From Heliocybe sulcata (Eukaryota; Basidiomycota; Agaricomycetes; Gloeophyllales; Gloeophyllaceae): a stretch of DNA of 64,000 bases. Under the pieces are notes generated by a model, which was not told the origin of the DNA, searched no databases, and was given only the letters and a program-made list of their open reading frames with translations. The stretch is taken from contig ML213510.1 of assembly GCA_004369045.1 (NCBI GenBank), positions 383,979 to 447,978 of the forward strand, in the 5' to 3' direction. A program made the position numbers and the translations under genes. Below are positions 1 through 44,323 of this stretch, piece by piece; position 1 is the first letter of the stretch; each line of letters starts with the position of its first letter.

Positions 1-2047
1 TCGTAGAAAATCAGGTTCGGCATGCCGGGCTGAAGATGTGTCCGGAGGTGTTGCCTCCTGTGCAGCTGCCTCTCGATGCTCTCGGCCTCCCTCCGCCTCA
101 GCTATTCACGACCCCAGCCGCGGAGGTAGTCCGTCGAGCGCTTTCAACGTCTACGCATGTTAGGGCATCCGCTAAGGTATGCCGTCTTGCCTTGCACAGC
201 GAACGGGTTATTGACGCCGCGATCCAGGATGTTCCTTCTTCTTGCATTAGCTTAGAGGCATGGTCTGCAGACTTTCAAGACAGTGCACTGATGGCACCGG
301 TCCAGGCGTCTTGCCGCTCAACTCCCACCAGCAGTAGTGGAGCTTTTCAGCACCTCGAGGTCCCGGTAATGAAGCAAGCTGTGGACGTCGTCTCCCCTGA
401 TGCCGCCGAAATGGGGTCGACGTTTGCTGATGCCGCAGCGCTCGATGTCGAGATGGCTTCACCCCTCGGTTCTGTACAAGATCCTTGTGAACCGGTAGTG
501 ACGTGCAGCGGCGCTCTGTCGCAGGACGGGATGGAGGTGGATGGCGAAGACGATTCTAGGCAGCATCCTTTCTTCGCCAATTCTCCGACAGAAATTTCGC
601 CAAACCAATGGCCACTTTGCTCTGGACCTGAGGCACCATCGGTCCTGTTTCCGGAGCCGATGCAGGTGGATTCTCCCACAACGCCGTACCTGGAGTCGCT
701 CGACGTCCACATGGAGGTGCTGGTGTCGCATTCGACGGATATCGAGATGCGGTCAGCATGTGCGAATGGAGGCACCACTGGTGACCTCGACCTGATGGAT
801 TGGGAGCCGATTCATACCTACCTTGTGAGTGCCTTCGTTTCCAGATCTGTTGGAGCATACTGATGCGCTTATCCGTTAAGTCATGCCCTGAGAGTATAGG
901 GTTAGGTGGACATGAGCTGTCCAGCGACGTGGCTTCATTTCGATGCATAGACCGTCTTTAATATCTTTTGATTCTTGTTGTACTCCGTAGCTACGTAATT
1001 ATTTCTTTATCCTGTAGCTACGTAGTTCTTTCTTCTTCTCTACTCCCCTCCCGTCCAAGCAGGGCCACCATGCTCTACGGTAAGCGTTGGCCCTCTGCTT
1101 GAGTTGTTTGTCGACTGACATTTACCCCATTTCTAGATCCATGTCGAACGGCCGGCTGGGGGAGCCTATCCAACCCTTGGGTGTCTGCCCCTCGGCTCCT
1201 TCTCCGGCGATGGCTTAATCCTCCTTCCGGCACTCAGCGCGAACGGTCGTCTCAGCTTGGTCCCGACGTTCTCTGGGTACGTAGTCCACTGCTCCTCCTG
1301 TGGGCCGACCAGCTCATTGTCTTTGCAGGACCACGCCGTTCGTCGACTGCCGCCTGAACGTGGCTTCGCTCATTGACTCTGCTTGCGACACGAACACCTC
1401 TAGCGCTGATGGCAGCTGTGCACGCCGAGGCGACGCTGGGACCTACTCGCGGTAAGGTGGCGGTGGATCCTGATCTCTTTGACAGCACGGCTCGAAAGGC
1501 GCGGCGATGGGCTGGGCTCCGAAAAACAACTGTCGGATTGGGGGCACAGGCGTTCTCGTAGGATACGGCCGGCGAGAGGGTGTTCTCTCTCTACTATTGG
1601 CGGCCAAAGGCCGGTGACATGGTAAGTCATTGTTTGCACTCCTCTCACTTCATAAGTACTGACACGAGTTCATCTGGTAGATATGGCATTGCGATGGCGC
1701 GTTTGTAGGTAGCGAGGTCGGGGCGAGGAGGCGGTCGTGGCGTTTGCTGACGCCTGACGGTGAGTCTGTTCGCTTCTGAGAGAAGCAAGGTGGCTCACGC
1801 AGCCCTCTCTGAGTTGTGGAGGGCGTCGGGCTTCGGTCCTGACGCCCTCTGCCACCCCTCAGGTTGCCACTGGTCCTTTATTCTGCCCCGTCCGTGCGCA
1901 TCGTTTCCGGACCCATTCGCAATGGTGAGCCCAATCTTCCGTGACATTGGTGTCGCGCTGATCGGTCTTCGCATCGTAGCCATATCATGCCACCCAAAGA
2001 ATGACAAATTCCTATCCCCTCTTTTGACTGGCGACCGATCCGCTTGA
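1..2047 (+). CDS. Gene 1 of repeat unit, copy A, 3' part (unrecognised protein)
   Basis: I do not recognise this gene. The first 860 bases are an open frame matching the C-terminal part of the long Ser/Pro/Glu-rich frame of copy C, ending near the LMDWEPIHTYL motif. Downstream, canonical introns separate short exons that recur in all three copies: 1080-1137 (gtaagc..ttctag), about 1278-1328 (gtacgt..ttgcag) and 1622-1680 (gtaagt..tactgac..ggtag). A final frame reads through TPDGCHWSFILPRP and ends LLTGDRSA at 2047. Exon phase between 1450 and 1760 is ambiguous, because two splice choices give different frames. No known domain is visible. The start lies outside the window. Confidence 0.5.
987..1024 (+). 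repeat. Paired 11-bp repeat gtagctacgta, 27 bp apart
   Basis: The word gtagctacgta occurs at 987-997 and again at 1014-1024. The pair and its spacing recur in copy C (near 40981-41020) and, inverted and with one site slightly changed, in copy B (near 10344-10386). The word contains the palindrome gtagctac. The pair lies inside a non-coding or intronic part of gene 1. Its role is unknown. Confidence 0.6.
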
Positions 2048-3011: not shown

Positions 3012-4297
3012 ATGATTATGAGCAGCTTAGTCTCAGAGCCTGTTGCGGATACTCATGTTCGGTTAATCATTGCACCTGACGTGCTGTGGCTGGATATCCC
3101 ATACACCATTTTGAGCGCTTTATGCTTGTATCCTCTCAAGTATTTTCGGTATCTCGGCTGGGCAATCCTTGGCCTTCACGGCCAGGTGTACTGGCGGGAG
3201 GAAGTCGCCCGTGACGACGCCACTGTGGTTTGCGGAGAGACCTATGAATTCAGGACAGAGAACAGTAAGTCCACTGCACTTTGCTATAATCTCACCTCTG
3301 ACAACGCTTGCGCTGCTTTGCAGTGGCTGGGGCCGCGCCCGCGAATGTCGATGTGAGCAAGAAGAAGACAGAATCTATCACCCAGACGTCAAGGCGCGAG
3401 AATTTAAGACGTATGGTGGAACCTCGCGATGGCCGATGCATCTTCACTGGTGCACCTCCAGAGTTTTGTGATGCTATTCACATCATCCCATTCGCGAGAG
3501 GACAAGATGTATGTTTCGCACTGTGATGTCTCTTCAAACTGATCTTGACTCGATGAGCAGTGGTTCGAAAGCATCGTTAGAAGCCGTAGAGACACTACAC
3601 AGTCGGATTTGGAAGACGCACCGCTGGACGATTTGAAGCTCGATAGTGCTAGCAACGCCTTCTTGGCTTCCAAACCGCTGCGTGGCTTGATTGATAGTAG
3701 ATGGGCGGCGGTCTTATCGGTTGGTTCTCCATATTTATATCGCGCGATCATCTTGCTGAAGATCGTTAGGTGCCGAACCCGGTTCTGACGCGGGATGATA
3801 TTGACACCAGTATCGACCCGCACCGAGAACGCGATGGTCGCGTGGAATATTCGACAGACAAGTCGTATGTCCTCCAGTGGCTCAAGCTTCCAGATGACGA
3901 GTACGATAGGGGCCAATACCTCCGGCTTGCACCAAATAATTCACTTGCAGCATTTCTCAAAGATACCCCCATCCCGAAACCTTCGCCCCTCCTGCTGCAC
4001 TATACGTATGGATGCACCGCCATCCGTTGCTGGGGACGCGAGCACGGATCCATGTCTGAACTTCCAGGCTTTGTTCCGACACCAGAGGTAATAGTCAGGC
4101 CGACTTCTACCTCTGATTCTCGTGATGCCGGGCGCGTCGACGATACCTTCGACCGGATCCAAGACCTCGTCTATATGCTTACTTTGCGAGGGAGGCCGGA
4201 GCTGTGCAAAGCCATAGAGGCGGAGAAGAAGGACTATGACGAACGATTAGAGGCATGGCGAGAAGGAGTGATGACTGCGAACGGTGAAGGTTCGTAG
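3012..4297 (+). CDS. HNH_2-type nuclease-domain protein, copy A
   Basis: Four exons join in frame: 3012-3264, 3324-3508, 3561-3719 and 3770-4297, giving 374 aa. Exon 2 encodes the start of an HNH_2-like domain (RDGRCIFTG..., then DAIHIIPFARGQD), and exon 3 carries the central Asn (ASNAFL). The third position of the motif, His in copies B (LHGLID) and C (LHRWID), reads Arg here (LRGLID), so this copy is probably catalytically weak or dead. The domain continues into exon 4 (VPNPVLTRDDID). The C-terminal half is specific to this family. It lacks a stretch of about 45 residues that copy B has before DRIQDLVYMLTLRGRPELCKAIEAE. This family is expanded in Agaricomycetes and its role there is not established. 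Confidence 0.8.
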
Positions 4298-6974: not shown

Positions 6975-8401
6975 CTACGAACCTTCACCGTTCGCAGTCA
7001 TCACTCCTTCTCGCCATGCCTCTAATCTTTCGTCATAGTCCTTCTTCTCCGCCTCTATGGCTTTGCACAGCTCCGGCCTCCCTCGCAAAGTGAGCATATA
7101 GACGAGGTCTTGGATCCGGTCAAACTCGTCATCAAACTCGTCATCCACGCGCATAATCGCACCAGAGTCTGAGGTCCGCCATTGCTCATGGTCCTGTTCT
7201 TCTTCTGACATAGAAGATCCAGTGGTCTCTGCGCTGGACCCGAATGGTCCTGGATCGCCAAGCCCTCTGCGTTTCAACAGTGCGTTCTGCGATGACCGCT
7301 TTGTTGGGGACCCAAAGGTATGCTTCGCTGCCTCCGGAGCCCGAACGAAGCCTGGAAGGTTAGACATGGATCCGTGCTCGCGTCCCCAGCAACGAATGGC
7401 GGTGCATCCATACATATAGTGCAGCAGGAGGGGCGAAGGTTTCGGGATGGGGGTATCTTTGGCAAATGCTGCAAGCGAATTGTTTGATGCAACCCGCAGG
7501 TATTGGCCCCTATCGTACTCGTCATCTGGAAGCTTGAGCCACTGGAGGATATACGACCTGTCTGTCGGATATTTCACGCGACCATCGCGTTCTCGGTGCG
7601 GGTCGATACTGGTGTCAATATCATCCCGCGTCAAAACCGGGTTCGGCACCTAACAATCTTCAGCAAGATGATCGCGCGATATAAGTATGGAGAACCAACC
7701 GATAAGACCGCCAGCCATCTACTATCAATCAAGCCATGCAGCGGTTTGAAAGCCAAGAAGGCGTTGCTAGCACTATCCAGCTCCAAATCGTCCAGCGGTT
7801 TGTCTTCCAAATCCGACTGCGTAGTGTCTCTACGGCTTCTAACGATGCTTTCGAACCACTGCTCATCGAGTCAAGATCAGTTTAAAGAGACATCACAGTG
7901 CGAAACATACATCTTGTCCTCTCGCGAATGGGATGATATGAATAGCATCACAAAACTCTGGAGGTGCACCAGTGAAGATGCATCGGCCATCGCGAGGTTC
8001 CACCATACGTCTTAAATTCTCGCGCCTTGACGTCTGGGTGATAGATTCTGTCTTCTTCTTGCTCACATCAACATTCACGGGCGCGGCCCCATCCACTACA
8101 AAGCAGCGCAAGCGTTGTTAGATCTGAGATTATAGGAAAGTGCAGTGGACTCACTGTTCTCTGTCCTGAGTTCATAGGTCTCTCCGGAAACCACAGTTGC
8201 GTCGTCACGGGCGACTTCCGCCCCATAGTACACCTTGCCTTGAAGGCCAAGGATTGCCCAGCCGAGATACCGGAAATACTTGACAGGATACAAGCACAAA
8301 AAGCTCAAGATGGTGTACGGGATATCCAGCCACAGCGCGTCAGATGCAATGATTAACCGAACATGAGTATCCGCAACAGGCTCTGAGACTAAGCTGCTCA
8401 T
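6975..8401 (-). CDS. HNH_2-type nuclease-domain protein, copy B (most complete)
   Basis: Same four-exon plan as copy A on the reverse strand, from MSSLVSEPVADTHVRLII at 8401 to MTANGEGS at 6975. The HNH-like residues are all kept: DAIHIIPFARGQD, SASNAFL and LHGLID. The last exon encodes 224 residues (from MPNPVLTRDDID) and includes an acidic, Ser-rich insert (SSMSEEEQDHEQW) that copies A and C lack. This makes it the best candidate of the three for a working protein. Nothing shows whether it acts on host or foreign DNA. Fungal HNH_2 proteins of this shape are numerous and uncharacterised. Confidence 0.82.
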
Positions 8402-9322: not shown

Positions 9323-12300
9323 TCAAGCGGATCGGTCGCCAGTCAAAAGAGGGGATAGGAATTTTTCATTCTTTGGGTGGCATGATATGGCTATGATGCG
9401 AAGACCAATCAGCGCGACACCAATGCCACGGAAAATTGGCTCACCATTGCGAATGGGCCCGGAAACGATGCGCACGGACGGGGCAGAGTAAAGGACCAGT
9501 GGCAACCTGAGGGGGTGGCAGAGGGCGTCAGGACCGAAGCCCGACGCCCTCCACAGCTCAGAGAAGGCTGCGTGAGCCACCTTGCCTCTCTCAGAAGCGA
9601 ACAGACTCACCGTCAGGCGTCAGCAAACGCCACGACCGCCTCCTCGCCCCGACCTCGCTACAAACGCGCCATCGCAATGCCATATCTACCAGATGAACTC
9701 GTGTCAGTATTTATGAAGTGAGAGGAGCGCAAACAATGACTTACCATGTCACCGGCCTTTGGCCGCAAATAGTAGAGCGAGAACACCCTCTCGCCGGCCG
9801 TATCCTACGAGAACGCCCGTGCCCCCGATCCGACAGTTGTTTTTCGGAGCCCAGCCCATCGCCGCGCCTTTCGAGCCGTGCTGTCAAAGAGATCAGGATC
9901 CACCGCCACCTTACCGCGAGTAGGTGTCCCAGCGTCGCCTCGGCGTGCACAGCTGCCATCAGCGCTGGAGGTGTTCGTGTCGCAAGCAGAGTCAACGAGC
10001 GAAGCCACGTTCAGGCGGTAGTCAACAAACGGCGTGGTCCTGCAAAGATAATGAGCTTGTCGACCCACAGGAAGAGCAGTGGACTGCGTACCCAGAGAAC
10101 ATCGGGACCAAGCTGAGACGACCGTTCGCGCTGAGAGCTGGAAGGAGGATTAAGCCATCGCCGGAGAAGGAGCCGAGGGGCAGACACCCAGGGGTTGGAT
10201 AGGCTCCCCCAGCCGGCGGTTCGACAGGGACCTAGAAATGGAGTAAATGTCAGTCGACAAACAACTCAAGCAGAGGGCCAACGCTTACCGTAGAGCATGA
10301 TGGCCCTGCGTAGACGGGAGGGGGGTAGAGAAGAAGAAAGAACTACGTAGCTACAGGATAAAGAAATAATCACGTAGCTACAGAGTATAACAAGAATCAA
10401 AAGATATTAAAGACGGTCTATGCATCGAAATGAAGCCACGTCGCTGGACAGCTCATGTCCACCTAACCCTATACTCTCAGGGCATGACTTGAGGGATCAA
10501 TGCATCGGTATGCAGCGACAGATCCGGAAACGAAGGCACTCACAAGGTAGGTATGAATCGGCTCCCAATCCATCAGGTCGAGGTCACCAGTGGTGCCTCC
10601 ATTCGCACATGCTGACCGCATCTCGATATCCGTCGATTTCGACACCAGCATCTCCATGTGGACGTCGAGCGACTCCAGGTACGGCATTGGGGAAGAATCC
10701 ACCAGCATCGGCTCTGGCAACAGGACCAATGGTGTCTCAAGTCCAGAGCAAAGTGGCCATTGGTTTGGCAAAACTCCTGTCGGAAAATGGACGAAGAGAG
10801 AGTGCTGCCTAGAGTCATCTTCGCCATCCACCTCCATCCCATCTTTCGACAGAGCGCGACTGGACGTCACTAGCGGCTCACAAGGATCTTCGACAGAACC
10901 GAGGGGTGAAGCCATCTCGATATCGAGGGCCGGAGCATCAGGAAACGTCGACACCATTTCGGCGACATCAGAGGAAACGACGTCCACAACTTGCTTCACT
11001 ATCGAGACCTCGGGGTGCTGAAGAGGTCGATGACGGCTAGTGGGAGTCGAATGGCCAGACTCCTGGACCGGTGCCATCAGTGCACTGTCTTTAAAGTCTG
11101 CAGACCATGCCTCTAAGCTAATGCAAGAAGAGGGAATATCCTGGATCGCGGCGTCAATAAACCGTTCGTTGTGCAAAGCAAGACGGCATACCTAGCGGAT
11201 TCCCTAACATGCGTAGACATTGAAAGCGCTCGACGGACTACCTCGGCTGCTGGGGTCGTAAACAGCTGAGGCGGAGGGAGGCCGAGAGCATCGAGAGGCA
11301 GATGTACAGGAGGCAACACCTCCGGACACATCTTCAGCCCGTCATGTCTTCCAGTGTGAACCTGGTTTCCTACTACTTTGATATCAGGATCGCCAGAACG
11401 TCGCCCGAGTAATCGCTCAGTGCTACCTCGATGGTCCTGTCGTTCAACCGCTCGCCTAGCAGAACACGGCTTTCGGCTCGGACGTCTTGCATGGCGCTTG
11501 ATCTTCGGGAGAATGCAGAGCAGGTTCTCGAGAACATCCCGCTCAGTCGAGGAACCGCTGTCGAGCAAGAGCACGTTGTCGACAACCGCTACAGCTGCCG
11601 ACCACGACCGAGCGCGGATAGGATGTTTGCATGGCGTCCTCGTCTTGGTACTCTTCTCTGTCCTAGGCGGACTGCCACCAGGTGTCCGCGACGGAGATTG
11701 ACGCGTCTTGTTTCTCATGGTGGAAGCGATGGCCCTCGCTGGTGTGCCAGCCGGCGTATAAGAACGCAACCGAGGAGCCTCCTCCACAAGACCCAAGGCC
11801 GGACGCGCCACTGACCAGCGTAGCGACACAGGAAGTATGTCTGAAGCGCAGCCAGGCTGCCCATTCTCTTCGCCGAAGCTGACACAAGGACGACGAGGGG
11901 TGAATCGAGCAGCAGCGCACACATAGGCAGAAGGGAGCTTCGAGTCGTGCTCCGGCTTACGAGTGGGGGCGACATCTTCAGGCACTTTGACGTCCTCTGT
12001 ACGACCGCCGGGCTTCGGGGCTTCGGCTTGCGATATCTCAACGACTTCCACGGCCACCACACCTTCGACGGCCTTGAGATGACTGGGAAAGACATTGACG
12101 TCCTCCCGATCCTCAACGGCGACAATCTTGACAAGACCAACGGCTTCACTGTGCTCGTCATCTTCTTCGAGCGTCCTGAGCGATTGCTTCAGAGCGCTGA
12201 CCGTGTTCTCTGGGTGAGCTTCCCCGTCTACAGGCGCCTCAGAGGCGCGAGCGTACCAAGGGCCCGTAGTAAGCGACTCTGTCTCGGCAGGAGCAGCCAT

Positions 12301-13851
12301 GACAGGAGCAGGATGACTTTCTTCCGGTGGACTGGGCTCGTCGATCAATAAGGTAGAAAGTTCTGCCATCACGGACGAGGCAGGGACAGGAGCCTCGGGC
12401 GATAACTGAGTCTCTCCGTGGACTATAGCTTGCCTGCTTGAGAGCACCAGATCTAGGAAGCCACTGGCCACGGGCGGTACCGTGGAGGTAGCTTGGAAGC
12501 TTGACTCGTCCTGGACGAGAGCGACGATACCGGAAAGCACCGAGCACGCTGAGACGAGCGGGGCGCTCGAGAGCAAAGGGGTCTCCAAGGAAGCTCCTGA
12601 GTCTTCGAGTACCAGACGGTTGAGTCCTGCCGTGGTAGAGGCGGACGACAAGCTCAAAGAGACAGAGCCATCTGAAAGACTTTGCGGACTGTTCTGGCCC
12701 ACGGAACCAGTACTAGCCGCCAACGATTGACTCGGCGCGAGCGAGATCTCGAGGAGGAGTCGCACGTCGTCATCGTTGTCCGAGTTGACGGGTGAGTCTC
12801 GTTTCTCGAGGCTTCCGTCCACTCCCCCTTCCTTCGCAGAGTCCAGGGAAAGAAGAGAGGTGACCGAGGCAGCCGCAACCAGGAGGCCTTCTGCGGTGGG
12901 ACTCGCAGGAGACAGTGGCAGCAGCGAGACGGAGCCGAAAGCCTAAGCTAGCAAGGGAATGAGGAAGGCGTCCGGATACATCTATGAGCTGCTGCTTACC
13001 TTTCGGACGTCCGCCAGTCCTAAAATCCCTCCTTCATCCGTAGCCTTCTCAGTCAAGGATCTCTCTGCATCGGATGGCGAGCAAAGAGATGTCTTCGCGG
13101 TCGACCAAAGACCAAGTCTTGAGGCTGCTCCGGTGGGGGGTTGACGAAGGAGCTGCCAGTAGACAGGCGGACGCGAAGAGGACCCAGACCAGGAAGGAGG
13201 ACCAGGTGGAGGGATGGCTCGAAGAGCGTATAACACTGAAGCTGTTTTGACACAGTTGCTGTTCATAATGCTTGACACTTGCTTTATACTTGCTAGTGGT
13301 GGGCGGAGAGAACCTGCGCCAGCTATACGTTCAGATTTATACATGCCTCACCATCAGGCCGATCGGTAGGGTTAATCAGCCGCTGGATGTCTCTGTCAGT
13401 TCCGCGACCGCGGCGACGTCGAGAAGAAACGCGTGTCTCGGTCAAAGGAGTAACCTCAAGAATCGCAGTCAAGTCTTCGATAGAGCGACAGTCCATTCCG
13501 AAATCTTGGGTTGGGTGGCGGAGAAAATGGCGCTCGTCGCGCAACTGTTCGGCCTCAAAAAGCAGCTTGTTTCGCACCGAAGGCTCCACACACGACTGCA
13601 GAGTCTCGAGATGTTCAAGAATACGTGGTGGAGGACTGGGATGTATGCGGATAGGGCACGAAAGCAAAGCGGCAGCCGGTCTCGTGACTCACTCACTGCA
13701 CGATTTCCTCAGACCATATTCCAGCAAACTCGACATCCATCTCACTGTCTAAGGTGTGAAACTCGTATCTCTTCTGCCTTGGCAACGTCTGCAGTCCATC
13801 GTAGGTCAAAGCATGAAGCTGTGCAAGCTGGCCAACTTTCACGTTCGACAT
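9323..13851 (-). CDS. Gene 1 of repeat unit, copy B (unrecognised, split frame)
   Basis: I do not recognise this gene. The start is best seen here: ATG at 13851 gives MSNVKVGQLAQLHALTYDG, ending EEIVH across an intron that starts gtgagtgagtcac and ends tcccag, then PPPRILEHLETLQS and TQDFGMDCRSIEDLTAI. A second intron (gtgagg..ccactag) leads to ASIKQVSSIMNS. A third (gtaagc..ttag) precedes FGSVSLL and the long Ser/Glu/Val-rich region, which in this copy is not one continuous frame (parts at 11113-12822 and 10469-11176). The 3' exons and the LLTGDRSA end at 9323 match copies A and C. It probably no longer makes the full protein. Confidence 0.5.
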
Positions 13852-37531: not shown

Positions 37532-37680
37532 GATGTAGCTTGCTAGATCATAGTTGTAGCATTCATTACGTGTACTGATACTGCTCACTTCTCATTATTG
37601 CCGTCTGGTTAATATGCTGCTGACAAGCTCGCACCGCCTTTGGGAGGGACCGACGCGTTATTGCTAGAGCAGTCTTCTGA

Positions 37681-40600
37681 TTGGCTTACAACAATTTGGG
37701 CGTATTTACGTCAAACGTGAAAGTTGCCCAGCTTGCACACTGTCATGATTGGCCGCCATTTTCCTTTCCTGCTCTCCTCCACCCCCATCTCGAGGTGTAT
37801 GGATCTTTCGGTGCAAAACAAGCTGCTCATCGAGGCCAAAACAATTGCGCGTCAAGCGCTTCCATCCCAACCCAAGATTTCGGAATGGACTGTCACTCGA
37901 TCCAAGACTTGACTGCGATTCCGGAGGTTACTCGTTTGACCGAGACATGCGACTCTTCTCGATGTCGTCGCTGTCGCGGAACTGACAGAGACATCCAGCG
38001 GCTGATTAACAAAACTGACAGGCCTGATGGCGAGGCATGTATAAATCTGAAGGTATAGCTGGCGCAGGTTCTCTCCGCCCACCACTAGCAAGTGTCAAGC
38101 ATTATGAACAGCAACTGTATCAAAACAGCTTCCGCGTTATACGCTCTTCGAGCCATCCCTCCACCGTCTGGTCCTCCTTTCTGGTCTGGGTCCTCTTCGC
38201 GTCTGCCTGTCTACTGGCAGCGCCCTCGTCAACCTCCTGCCGGAGCAGCCTCAGGACTTGGCTTTTGGTCGACCACGAGGACATCTCTTTGCTCGCCATT
38301 TGATGCAGAGAGATCCTTGACTGAGAAGGCGACGGATGAAGGAGGGATTTTAAAACTGGCGGACGTCCGAAAGGTAAGCAGCAGCTTATATATGTATCTG
38401 GGCGCCTGCCTCATTCCATTGCTCGTGCAGGCTTTCGGCTCCGTCTCGCTGCTGCCACTGTCTCCTGCGAGTCCTACCGCAGAAGGCCTCCTGGTTGCGA
38501 CTGCCTCGGTCACCTCTCTTCTTTCCCTGGACTCTGCGAAGGAAGGGGAAATGGACGGAAGGCTCGAGGAACGAGACTCATCCGTCTACTCAGACAACTC
38601 GGACAGCACTGACGATCGGCGATCGCACCTCGAGATTTCGCTTGCGCCGAGTCAATCGTTGGCGGCTGGTACGGCTTCCTTGGGCCAGAACATTTCGCAA
38701 AGTCTCTCGGATGGCTCTGTCTCTCTGAGCTTGTCGTCCGCCTCTACCACGACCGGACTCAAGCGTCTGGCACCCGAAGACCCAGGAGCTTCCTTGGAGA
38801 CTCCTTTGCTCTCGCGCTCCCCGCTCGTCTCAGCGTGCTCGGTGCTTTCCGGTATCGTCGCTCTCGTCCAGGACGAGTCAAGCTTCCAAGCTGCCTCGGC
38901 GGTTCCGCCCGTGTCCAGTGGCTCCCCAGACCCGGTCCTCTTGCCTAGGCAAGCTACAGTGTACGGAGAGACTCAGTTATCACCCGAGGCTTCCTCGTTC
39001 GTGATGGCAGGGGTTTCTACCTTATTGATCGACGACCCCAGTCCCCCGGAAGAAAGTCACCCAGCTCCTGTCATGGCTGCTCCTGCCGAGACAGAGTCGC
39101 TTACTACGGGCTCTTGGTACGCTAGCGCCTCTGAGGCATCTGTATGGGTGGAAGAGAACACGGTCAGCGCTCTGAAGCAATCGCTCAGGAAGCTGGAGGA
39201 AGATGATGAGCAGCGTGAGGCCGTTGGTCTTGTCAAGGCTCCCCATGTTCTCATCTTTGAGGATCGGGAGGGCGTCAATGTCTTACCCGGTCTTCTCAAG
39301 GCCGTCGAAGGTGTGGTGGCCGTGGAAGTCGTTGAGCTATCGGAAGCCGAAGCCCCGAAGCCTGGCAGTCGTACGGAAGATGTCAAAGTGCCTGAAAATG
39401 TCGCCCCCACTCGTGCGCCGGAGGACGACTGGAGGGTCCCTTCTGCCTGTGTGTGCGCTGCTGCTCGATCCACCCATCGTCGTCCTTATGTCCGCTTTGG
39501 TGAAGAGAATAGGCGACCTGGCTGCGCTCCAGACACACTTCCTGTGTCGCTGCGCTGGTTACTGGCGCGTCCGGCCTTTGGTCTTGTGGAGGAGGCTCCT
39601 CGGTTGCGTTCTTATACGCCGGCTGGCACACCAGCGAGGGCCATCGCTTCCACCATGAGAATCAAGACGCGTCCATCTCCGTCGCGGACACCTGGTGGCA
39701 GCCCGCCTAGGACAGAGAAGAGTACCAAGACGAGGACGCCATGCAAACATCTTATCCGCGCTCGGTCGTGGTTGGCAGCTGTAGCGGTTGTCGACAACGT
39801 GTTCTTGCTCGACAGCGGTTCCTCGAGTGAGCTGGATGTTCTCGAAAACCTGCTCTGCACTCTCCCGAAGACCAAGCGCCGTGCAAGGCGTCCGAGCCTA
39901 AAGCCGTGTTCTGCTAGGCGAGCGGTTGAACGACAGGAACCTCGACGTAGCACGAAGCGACTACTCAGGCGACGTTCTGACGATCTTGATATTAAAGTCG
40001 TAGAAAATCAGGTTCGGCATGCCGGGCTGAAGATGTGTCCGGAGGTGTTGCCTCCTGTGCAGCTGCCTCTCGATGCTCTCGGCCTCCCTCCGCCTCAGCT
40101 GTTCAAGACCCCAGCAGCCGAGGTAGTCCGTCGAGCGCTTTCAACGTCTACGCATGTTAGGGCATCCGCTAAGGTATGCCGTCTTGCCTTGCACAGCGAA
40201 CGGGTTATTGACGCCGCGATCCAGGATACTCCCTCTTCTTGCATTAGCTTAGAGGCATGGTCTGTAGACTTTCAAGACAGTGCACTGACAGCACCGGTCC
40301 AGGCGTCTGTCCGCTCAACTCCCACTAGCAGTGGTGGAGCTTTTCAGCACCTCGAGGTCCCGGCAATGAAGCATGTTGTGGACGTCTCCCCTGATGTCGC
40401 CGAAATGGGGTCGACGTTTGCTGATGCCGCAGCGCCCGATATCGAGATGGCTTCACCCCTCGGTTCTGTACAAGATTCCTGTGAACTGGTAGTGACGTCC
40501 AGCGGCGCTCTGTCGCAGGACGGGATGGAGGTGGATGGCGAAGACGACTCTAGGCAGCATCCTTTCTTCGTCAGTTTTCCGACAGGAGTTTCGCCAAACC

Positions 40601-42037
40601 AATGGCCACTTTGCTCTGGACCTGAGACACCATCGGTCCTGTTTCCGGAGCCGATGCTGGTGGATTCTCCCACAACGCCGTACCTGGAGTCGCTCGACGT
40701 CCACATGGAGGTGCTGGTGTCGCATTCGACGGATATCGAGATGCGGTCAGCATGTGCGAATGGAGGCACCACTGGTGACCTCGACCTGATGGATTGGGAG
40801 CCGATTCATACCTACCTTGTGAGTGCCTTCGTTTCCAGATCTGTTGGAGCATACTGATGCGCTTATCCGTTAAGTCATGCCCTGAGAGTAGAGGGTTAGG
40901 TGGACATGAGCTGTCCAGCGAGGTGGCTTCGTTTCGATGCATAGACCGTCTTTAATATCTTTTGATTCTTGTTGTACTCTGTAGCTACGTAATTATTTCT
41001 TTATCCTGTAGCTACGTAGTTCTTTCTTCTTCTCTACTCCCCTCCCGTCCAAGCAAGGCCACCATGCTCTACGGTAAGCGTTGGCCCTCTGCTTGAGTTG
41101 TTTGTCGACTGACATTTACCCCATTTCTAGATCCCTGTCGAACCGCCGACTGGGGGAGCCTATCCAACCCCTGGGTGTCTGCCCCTCGGCTCCTTCTCCG
41201 GCGATGGCTTAATCCTCCTTCCGGCACTCAGCGCGAACAGTCGTCTCAGCTTGGTCCCGACGTTCTCTGGGTACGTAGTCCACTGCTCCTCCTGTGGGCT
41301 GACCAGCTCATTGTCTTTGCAGGACCACGCCGTTGGTCGACTGCCGCCTGAACGTGGCTTCGCTCGTCGACTCTGCTTGCGACACAAACACCTCTAGCGC
41401 TGATGGCAGCTGTGCACGCCGAGGCGACGCTGGGTCCTACTCGCGGTAAGGTGGCGGTGGATCCTGATCTCTTTGACAGCACGGCTCGAAAGGCGCGGCG
41501 ATGGGCTGGGCTCCGAAAAACAACTGTCGGATTGGGGGCACGGGCGTTCTCGTAGGATACGGCCGGCGAGAGGGTGTTCTCTCTCTACTATTGGCGGCCA
41601 AAGGCCGGTGACATGGTAAGTCATTGTTTGCACTGCTCCCCTTCATAAGTACTGACACGGGTTCATTTGGTAGATATGGCATTGCGATGGCGCGTCTGTA
41701 GCGAGGTCGGGGCGAGGAGGCGGTCGTGACGTTTGCTGACGCCTGACGGTGAGTCTGTTCGCTTTTGAGAGAAGCAAGGTTGCTCACGCAGCCTTCTCTG
41801 AGCTGTGGAGGGCGCCGGACTTCGGTCCTGACGCCCTCTGCCACCCCCTCAGGTTGCCACTTGTCCTTTACTCTGCCCCGTCCGTGCGCACCGTTTCCGG
41901 ACCCATTCGCAATGGTGAGCCCAATCTTCCGTGACATTGGTGTCGCGCTGATCGGTCTTCGCATCGTAGCCATATCATGCCACCCAAAGAATGAAAAATT
42001 CCTATCCCCTCTTTTGACTGGCGACCGATCCGCTTGA
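37681..42037 (+). CDS. Gene 1 of repeat unit, copy C (unrecognised, longest open frame)
   Basis: Unrecognised. The core is a frame from 38092 to 40857 of 921 codons, or 902 after removing a probable in-frame 57-nt intron at 38374-38430 (gtaagc..gtgcag). Content: an N-terminal region shared with copy B (TQDFGMDCHSI.DLTAI), a Ser/Glu/Val-rich middle, a basic Arg/Ser/Pro stretch near 39640-39960 (RTPGGSPPRTEKSTKTRTPCKH), then a region with repeated SALSQDGMEVDGEDDS-like acidic motifs ending LMDWEPIHTYL. Smaller exons continue to LLTGDRSA at 42037. No domain, signal peptide or membrane helix is evident. Overall composition suggests a disordered nuclear protein; that is inference only. The copy B start codon is not kept here, so the N-terminus is uncertain. 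Confidence 0.5.
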
Positions 42038-43178
42038 ACGCCGTAGCCCCCTCTGCCCTCGTCCCATCCATGCGCCTGGTGAGTCCGTGCTGTCTCTGAG
42101 GCGAGAGGACGCCGGCGCTGGTCCGTTTGAGCCATGGTCTCTGGTGTTGCGGTAAGCGGACAGCTGTTTCGATGGGCCTGATCTTGCCCCCAGCAGCTGC
42201 TAGAGTTTCGGGCTGAACTTAGCCCTTGTCAATGGTCGTGCTCCGCAAGACAGTGAGAGCCTTCTTCGTCCCTTTGGAGACGACGACGCAGCTTTCGAAC
42301 GCTGGACATTAAGCCTTCCGCCCAAGTTCATTTCAAGGAGCTTCGTCGGACATACTAGGTGGTTACTACGATGGGAGGATGTTTCTCTTGCCTGTGCTTC
42401 ATACTTTTGTAGCGTACAGCCTAGTCACTGGTCTATGCATTTGTTTGTAGTGTACAGCCTAATTTATTTCCTTTCGAGCTTCTCTCCGGAGTGGCTGCAC
42501 TCTAAGCCACGCTTTTATATGGTCACCATCTTCTGACATAGCCTGGAAGAACTTGCCCTCTGCTCGAGAGACACACTCCTCAGAGCGCGCTTCGGCTGCG
42601 TTGACATCTTTGCACGTGACCCGCACCTGATACGCACGCGTTGCCACAGCCCGCAAGGTTTATTTACTACAAGGGGCGGACACCGGGAGATGCCGAGACC
42701 GGACGTGGGGGAGGGGGGGGGGCTCCGACACCCTTAACTGAGATTTCTGACGTCCGGTCTTTTATTTTATTTCTGTCCGCCCCTTGATTTACTACCAGCA
42801 TCCGGGACTGAGCTGGAGTTTGCCGTGGAGGTTTAGGTTACTGGTTGTAAGTGCTGATACCGTCATTGACGTGCGTCCGGTCACGACGGATGATCGTCAC
42901 TGTCCAATCCTCTGGAGTCTGGTCGCATGGCTGTCCAGCTTTCTTAGTTTCTATCGTCCATATGTTGTTCCAACGCAGGGAATCTTGGCCATGAGAGCGC
43001 AAAGCCTAGGTATTTAATACGGGCGGCAAGCATGTGCCTCCTTGCGCTACCTCTTCCCAAATTTATGCGATTAATTAGGCCGTGTGGCGCGTAGAATGCT
43101 GTCTGTTTGATCATATTTGTTTCTCCTCCTACTGATACTCCTTTGTATTGAAGCACCGTCATACTATCGTTCCGTTCC
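42038..43178. other. Spacer between gene 1 and HNH gene, copy C
   Basis: About 1.1 kb without a supported gene, matching 2048-3011 in copy A but enlarged by the MITE at 42670-42786. It should contain the HNH promoter. Confidence 0.5.
42670..42786. mobile_element. hAT-like MITE (117 bp) with 8-bp target duplication
   Basis: Ends are perfect 13-bp inverted repeats: caaggggcggaca at 42670-42682 and tgtccgccccttg at 42774-42786. Inside is a second perfect pair, agaccggacg (42696-42705) and cgtccggtct (42751-42760), so the element can fold into a hairpin. It is flanked by the 8-bp direct repeat atttacta (42662-42669 and 42787-42794). An 8-bp duplication with short C/A-starting ends fits the hAT superfamily. 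It has no coding capacity. The same place in copies A and B has no insertion, so it arrived after the unit was duplicated. Confidence 0.9.
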
Positions 43179-44323
43179 ATGATTATGAGCAGCTTAGTCT
43201 CAGAGCCTGTTGCGGATACTCATGTTCGGTTAATCATTGTACTCAACGTGCTCTGGCTGGATATCCCGTACACCATTTTGAGACCTTTATGCTTGTATCC
43301 CCTCAAGTATTTTCGGTATCTTGGCTGGGCAATCCTTGGCCGGGCAATCCTTGGCCTTCAGGGCAAGGTGTACTATGGAGCGGAAGTCGCCTGTGACGAC
43401 GCACCTGTGGTTTGCGGAGAGACCTATGAATTCAGGACAGAGAACAGTGAGTCCACTGCACTTCCCTATCGTCTCAGATCTGACAACGCTTGCTCTGCTT
43501 TGCAGTGGCTGGGGCCGCGCCCGTGAATGTCGATGTGAGCAAGAAGAAGTCAGAATCTATCACTCAGATGTCAAGGCGCGAGAATCTAAAGCGTATGGTG
43601 GGACCTCGCGATGGCCGATGCATCTTCACTGGTCACTCTCACTTGGGTTGTGAGGCTATGCACATCATCCCATTCACAAGAGGACAAGATGTATGCTTCG
43701 CACTGTGGTGTCTTTTGGAAATGGTCCTGACTCGATGAGCAGTGGTTCGAGCGCATCGTTAGAAGCCGTAGAGACACTTCACAATCGGATTTGGAAGACA
43801 CACCGCTAAACGATCTGAAGCTCGATAGTACCAGCAACGGCTTCTTGGTTGTCGGGGGGTTGCATCGCTGGATTGATAGATGGGTGGCGGCCTTACCGGT
43901 TAATTCTCCGTACTTATGTCGCGTGATCACCTTGCTGAAGATTATTAGGTGCCGAACCCAGTTTTGACGCGGGATGATATTGATATCAGTATCAACCCGC
44001 ACCGGGAAAGCGATGGTCGCGTGGAATATTTGACAGACAGGTCGTATATCCTCCAGTGGCTCAAGCTTCCAGATGACGAGTACGATAGGGAGGGTGTGCT
44101 GCGAATTGCACCAAATAATTCACTTGCAGCATTTGTCAAAGGTACCCCCATCCCGAAACCTTCGCCACTCCTGCTGAACTACATGTATGGATGCACCGCC
44201 ATTCGTTGCTGGGGACGCGAGCACGGGTCCATGTCTGACCTTCCCGGCTTTGTTCCGACACCAGAGGTAATAGTCAGGCGGACTTCTACCTCTGATTCTC
44301 GTGATATCGGGCGCGAAAGATAG
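43179..44323 (+). CDS. HNH_2-type nuclease-domain protein, copy C (3' truncated)
   Basis: Same exon plan as copy A: MIMSSLVSEPVADTHVRLII, then RDGRCIFTG and EAMHIIPFTRGQD, then STSNGFL and LHRWID, then VPNPVLTRDDIDISINPH. The His-Asn-His residues are present, but the loop around them differs (GHSHLGCE). A 15-bp tandem duplication near 43327-43356 adds five residues (WAILGRAILG). The frame stops early at 44323 (DSRDIGRER), lacking the conserved C-terminal block (DRIQDLVYMLTLRGRPE) seen in A and B. It is probably a shortened, perhaps non-functional copy. Confidence 0.72.
43327..43356 (+). repeat. 15-bp tandem duplication in HNH copy C
   Basis: The word gggcaatccttggcc occurs twice back to back (43327-43341 and 43342-43356). 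Copies A and B have it once. It keeps the reading frame. Confidence 0.9.

Follow-up and report, generated by a model that had tools for sequence, protein, structure and literature searches.

A repeated protein-coding gene without recognisable domains in Heliocybe sulcata: local copies, candidate gene conversion and a motif-rich paralogue

A 64,000-nucleotide stretch of the basidiomycete Heliocybe sulcata (contig ML213510.1, positions 383,979 to 447,978; hereafter the window) carries copies of a segment in which a long gene of no recognisable family, here called gene 1, lies next to a gene resembling the HNH_2 nucleases. Is gene 1 a protein-coding gene, and is it one half of a two-gene selfish or defensive system, as a preliminary description made from the letters of the window had proposed? 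We compared the copies with one another and searched a 31.6-Mb genome of 51 contigs, in which the window is C8:383979-447978. The genome-wide searches for gene 1 and for the HNH gene were made within this one genome and scored only the best candidates. The explanation that we prefer, with slightly better than even confidence, is that gene 1 is a genuine coding gene of a fast-evolving, domain-free family, present in local and mostly inverted copies between which conversion takes place, that its product is a motif-based regulator, and that the HNH gene is not its partner.

The segment is 6.3-7.0 kb long and is present three times in or at the window (A, B and C; Table 1). The aligned pieces are 82-97% identical, which bears out the three copies first described. 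A and C are convergent and C and B divergent, and A and B are direct repeats 40 kb apart. Because a run of 1385 N (C8:382594-383978), left of the window, falls inside gene 1 of copy A, this copy of the gene is not judgeable as a whole.

The open frame of copy B runs from 38089 to 40857. Translation from the ATG at 38104, with an intron at 38374-38430 removed and an end at the donor after 40818, yields 886 amino acids; the coding sequence (CDS) is 38104-40818 or, should the last donor go unused, continues to 40857. This donor of exon 2, GTGAGT, is conserved in A, B and C, and the donor and acceptor of intron 1 are conserved in B and C. The exon signals said to be shared by all three copies are thus there for the last donor, and those of intron 1 are not readable in copy A, which is gapped at this place. 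A TATAAAT at 38040-38046 lies 64 nt 5' of the ATG. Homologues on contig C7 begin with the same two residues as copy B and have an intron of the same place and phase, and a TATAAA stands 70 nt 5' of the ATG in the C7 homologue. Read in the frame of B, copy C has no stop in its exons and only one 1-nt indel, near 11193; of the three stops met by tblastn in copy C, two are inside the intron and the third is at this indel.

Indels were counted in three pairs of copies, B/C, C7p/C7m (the pair on C7) and C25p/C25m (a pair on contig C25); comparisons with copy A were excluded, as were the HNH gene and the outer flanks of C7, which are unrelated. The reading frame is kept by 12 of 13 indels in the CDS and by 5 of 42 in neighbouring non-coding DNA (Fisher p 1.6e-7). 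The frame-keeping CDS indels are distributed as 7 of 8 for B/C, 4 of 4 for the C25 pair and 1 of 1 for the C7 pair. The C25 pair encodes a different protein and was dropped in a second test, which gave 8 of 9 in the CDS and 4 of 31 outside it (p 5e-5). Further, both C7 copies are open (1129 and 1130 amino acids), and their ratio of nonsynonymous to synonymous divergence (dN/dS) is 0.52 (95% interval 0.38-0.72). The gene-1 family is protein-coding, and the C7 pair is under constraint. Since the indels keep the frame and the C7 pair has this low ratio, past selection on the protein, as suggested in the preliminary description, holds on these two grounds, and it draws no support from the ratios among A, B and C given below.

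The limits of the gene differ from those first proposed. The span 37681-42037 that had been called gene 1 holds an upstream region, the gene and a conserved non-coding block. A candidate exon in 37681-38058, the frame with TQDFGMDC.SI.DLTAI, lies before the ATG and mostly before the TATAAAT. In 37750-38103 the differences between B and C fall evenly on the three codon positions (16/14/17), and of the 6 indels 5 are frame-breaking; this stretch is therefore not taken for an exon. LLTGDRSA (42011-42034), described as the end of the protein, is inside the block behind the gene. Coding exons in 41008-42200 were also rejected: the compared blocks show no triplet bias, and the indels of the C25 pair (4, 1, 1 and 2 nt) break the frame. 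Identity of the block to C25 is kept although the proteins encoded upstream are not alignable. Between the two C25 copies, the block diverges by 5.5%, the preceding linker by 24.5%, the two long coding exons by 6.6 and 8.6%, and a 77-nt exon by 3.9%. On C7 the block is absent, with no nhmmer match up to E 10. A structured RNA was considered and rejected as well. In an Rfam scan of the block in five sources, no family reached its gathering score (three matches lay below threshold, E 0.64 to 4.4), and the folding energy was not better than that of shuffles (z 1.54, 0.91 and -0.55). The block may be transcribed into a non-coding RNA and spliced, or it may be a regulatory element common to both loci. 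Its counterpart lies at about 8091-9060 of L010, and about 425 nt with intron-like signals in the C8 block are missing from C25.

The protein of copy B is acidic (net charge -25) and rich in Ser (13.0%) and Pro (9.3%), in agreement with the first description. Also as described, it belongs to no known family: Pfam gave no family for the copy B frame or for the C7 homologue. A comparison with solved structures gave one match, at E 0.67, which we take for chance, and a search of viral contigs gave two pattern matches and no relative. In the accessible part of the literature we found nothing on the family. AlphaFold, run on exon 2 alone without an alignment, returned a mean pLDDT (predicted local distance difference test) of 32.6, which is uninformative and lends no support to disorder. 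We nevertheless consider the protein probably disordered in large part.

Relatives of gene 1 occur elsewhere in the genome. With copy B as query, tblastn found the C7 pair at 702712 (+) and 723222 (-); with the C7 protein as query, further homologues appeared at C24:232191-234298 and C16:79495-80226. Copy B and C7 are 33% identical over about 300 N-terminal amino acids and 75% identical over 24 amino acids around LDALGLPPPQL. The C7 arms are 6.0 kb long, 94% identical, inverted and 9.2 kb apart, and their 5' edge is sharp, with 3% divergence inside the arm and 56% in the flank. Behind the C7 gene, inside the arms, stand diverged repeats of about 190 bp (C7:707000-708548). A second unit type forms an inverted pair on C25 (90% identical, 3.9 kb), with a further copy on C29. 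It encodes a 764-amino-acid protein for which hhalign gave no homology to gene 1 (probability 0.78%), and the C25 pair has the same block as is found behind gene 1. The C29 copy is interrupted by about 2.2 kb of other sequence (C29:205000-208700). All three loci found with more than one copy (C8, C7 and C25) hold inverted copies; C24, C16 and C29 have one copy each. Direct repeats around needed genes may have been deleted, leaving inverted copies prevalent.

Within C8, gene 1 and the HNH gene give mostly different genealogies. Synonymous divergence (dS) of gene 1 is 0.035 for A/B, 0.115 for A/C and 0.107 for B/C, which groups A with B; that of the HNH gene is 0.077 for A/C, 0.168 for A/B and 0.210 for B/C, which groups A with C. 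Sites at which two copies agree against the third tell the same: left of 41323 they number 85 for AB, 20 for AC and 22 for BC, and right of 42160, 176 for AC, 78 for AB and 43 for BC (p 1e-18, which is only a guide because the sites are not independent events). Since the two histories mostly differ, conversion between copies is favoured and a single co-inherited unit disfavoured. In 42600-43150 there is no clear grouping (30 AB vs 26 AC). The switch from A with B to A with C was seen at 42100-42600 of the window, where a gene-conversion boundary is likely.

The C7 homologues have an unusual array of degron-like motifs. C7p has KEN motifs at 467, 513, 609 and 829, broadly alternating with five sequences like the destruction box (D-box), RVPLRDIT, RRPLRSIT, RPPLRDIT, RRPLRDIS and RRPLCDIT; C7m likewise has 4 KEN motifs and 5 D-boxes. 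The broken copy on C24 still has one KEN and one RRPLRKIT. All five D-boxes of C7p have P3, L4 and I7, D6 and T8 each occur in four of them, and none has N9; I7 is kept in 4 of 5 D-boxes of C7m. The accessible part of one study (PMC12401543) gives the D-box as RxxLxxxxN, names Pro3 and Ile7 as optimal, and has RAPLSDITN among its peptides. The P3, L4, D6, I7 and T8 of that peptide, as the study's accessible part gives it, are the residues kept in C7p, whereas position 9 in C7 is D, E or H instead of the consensus N. A better argument for the array than shuffled sequences give is the lack of likeness among the first three KEN units outside the motifs and their near neighbours.

With several KEN motifs and RxPLRDIT-like motifs, the C7 homologues resemble clients and pseudosubstrate inhibitors of the anaphase-promoting complex/cyclosome (APC/C) such as Hsl1 and Acm1. 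The likeness is one of motifs alone. Hsl1 is a kinase, and C7p has no Pfam domain, hence no kinase. In copy B, FGEEN and RRPSLKP, paired by eye with FGKEN and RRPLRSI of C7, stand at two of the positions, and neither motif is therefore found in copies B and C. ABBA-like motifs number 3 in B and 2 in C, unlike the C7 proteins, which have none; C25m has none either, and the motif is too degenerate to use.

Our preferred explanation would join these observations as follows. Gene 1 would have been copied locally, mostly as inverted segments (A+, C- and B+ on C8, a +/- pair on C7), and gene conversion would have exchanged sequence between the copies. The product may be a regulatory protein that relies on short linear motifs. 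That of the C7 branch would most likely be bound by Cdc20 or Cdh1 via the KEN/D-box array, and then either be destroyed at mitotic or meiotic exit or act as a pseudosubstrate inhibitor. The C8 branch would keep the flanks and LDALGLPPPQL, its degrons lost or never present; the activity of this branch would therefore not follow that cell-cycle timing. As a kind, gene 1 is ordinary, with one unusual paralogue, that on C7. Orphan genes homogenised by gene conversion are a known kind, and inverted local copies, a patchwork genealogy, a kept frame and the lack of a family liken gene 1 to the fast-evolving members of this kind, from which nothing decisive sets it apart.

Several observations pull the other way. 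The comparison of dN/dS among the window copies, proposed beforehand, showed no selection: the ratio is 0.85 for B/C (95% interval 0.65-1.14), 1.12 for A/B (0.57-3.62) and 0.79 for A/C (0.51-1.30), none distinguishable from 1, so that neutrality as well as diversifying selection may hold for the C8 copies. By the charge-hydropathy test, B, C7p and C25m all come out as folded, not as disordered. The HNH side of the segment is patchy and not uniformly of the A-with-C type, with 43100-43299 and 44100-44299 grouping A with B. KEN motifs and strict D-boxes are both missing from copies B and C, and the APC/C part of the explanation is therefore not applicable to the window gene as it stands. Internal duplication accounts for the second half of the C7 array. 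Shuffles of C7p with the same composition average 0.099 KEN and 0.003 strict D-boxes, with 0 of 20000 reaching the observed number of either, and 0 of 3000 shuffles of C7m reach the observed KEN or D-box numbers, counts that overstate the case for degrons because the strict D-box pattern was picked after the sequence was seen and part of the array is internally duplicated. The APC/C link thus stands as a good lead for C7 and not as a result for the window gene. A bolder version, in which the family, with its KEN motifs and near-optimal D-boxes in tandem arrays, would be an APC/C decoy that disturbs the timing of mitosis or meiosis for its own benefit and multiplies as inverted local copies, with the window-type paralogues degron-free through motif loss, appears highly improbable to us.

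Gene 1 and the HNH gene might instead work jointly as a selfish or defensive system, such as a poison with its antidote or a self-moving element. The two are adjacent in all three C8 copies, and the HNH gene is under purifying selection, with dN/dS of 0.63 for A/B (0.41-0.98), 0.50 for B/C (0.34-0.80) and 0.66 for A/C (0.32-1.40). This adjacency was found only in those three copies. The HNH protein matches listed fall on C8 (three copies), C6 and C28, the last two without a gene 1 match, and none is listed on C7, C24 or C16, which hold gene-1 homologues, or on C25 or C29; this absence is not proof, because the searches scored only best candidates. The steady pairing first described is accordingly not confirmed. 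The genealogies of the two genes mostly differ, copy B of the HNH gene is without about 53 C-terminal codons, and neither exon 2 of gene 1 nor the HNH gene matched any PADLOC family. Taken together, a two-gene system is unsupported and in our judgement very unlikely, and the HNH_2-like gene would be a neighbour duplicated along in C8. Its resemblance to HNH_2 is itself weak: the spliced protein of copy A matches positions 1-62 of the 66 of the Pfam profile (PF13391) at 16.5 bits (E 0.0076), below the cut-off of 21. The His of the motif L-H-x-(L/W)-I-D is catalytic; copies B and C have it, and copy A has Arg in its place. HNH_2 domain hits are listed on C8, C5 (two, inverted), C22, C45, C4 and C49 and, among these best candidates, likewise on none of C7, C24, C16, C25 and C29. 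The C5 hits belong to an inverted pair without a gene 1 match (C5:1499715-1501030 and 1519137-1520457), 80% identical and about 18 kb apart.

Units dispersed in low copy number over C8, C7, C24, C16, C25 and C29, often inverted and with a sharp 5' edge at the C7 arms, could also be remnants of a mobile element, that is, transposon copies without a transposase. We regard this as unlikely. By eye, no terminal inverted repeat or target-site duplication was seen at the C7, C25 and C8 junctions, where the unit ends are not fixed; the copy B frame, C7p, C25m and the HNH protein have no Pfam match to a transposase, polymerase or the like; and the copy number is low and the unit edges vary between loci. 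It is somewhat easier to picture, and still rather improbable, that the open frames are left over in a decaying pseudogene family on which selection has ended. The B/C ratio of 0.85, the frame-breaking indel in copy C, a stop in one C25 copy and the broken copies on C24 and C29 would fit such decay; copy B, fully open over 886 codons, the 7 of 8 frame-keeping indels between B and C, and the constraint on the C7 pair do not.

The preferred explanation, a coding family with local conversion, replaces the story of a nuclease and an unknown protein by a testable one, centred on constrained, domain-free C7 members with an alternating array of KEN and D-box-like motifs. If the array works, a fast-evolving orphan family would be tied to cell-cycle control. 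Inverted pairs around ordinary genes also offer a clear case for the study of gene conversion between copies.

Table 1. Features of the three repeat copies, in window positions
Feature	Position	Strand	Basis or remark
Segment A	left of window edge to 4372	+	repeat alignment; cut by window edge and N gap
Segment C	13870 to 6903	-	repeat alignment
Segment B	37674 to about 44315	+	repeat alignment
Region before gene 1, copy B; repeat starts here	37674..38103	+	repeat edge, flat codon-position differences, frame-breaking indels
Gene 1 exon 1, copy B	38104..38373	+	ATG and GTAAGC donor shared with C; C7 pair has a homologous exon and the same intron position
Gene 1 exon 2, copy B (open frame of 796 codons)	38431..40818	+	frame-keeping indels, tblastn to C7 pair
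FGEEN	39496..39510	+	by-eye counterpart of C7 FGKEN (KEN box), K to E; placed by MAFFT near other KEN units
LDALGLPPPQL	40069..40101	+	within the best-conserved stretch of B and C7 (24 amino acids, 75% identical)
Conserved non-coding block after gene 1, with LLTGDRSA	41008..42200	+	intron-like signals; DNA 71-78% identical to C25
Gene 1, copy A, 3' part of exon 2; 5' part left of window	1..824	+	
Gene 1, copy C	10544..13266	-	B frame kept except one 1-nt indel near 11193
HNH_2-like gene, copy A	3012..4297	+	gene model
HNH_2-like gene, copy B; without about 53 final codons that A and C have	43179..44323	+	
HNH_2-like gene, copy C	6975..8401	-	limits by alignment

Other frames lie between the segments. 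An open frame between A and C is one that we take to encode an M20-type peptidase, and the row of frames between C and B presumably consists of ordinary genes.

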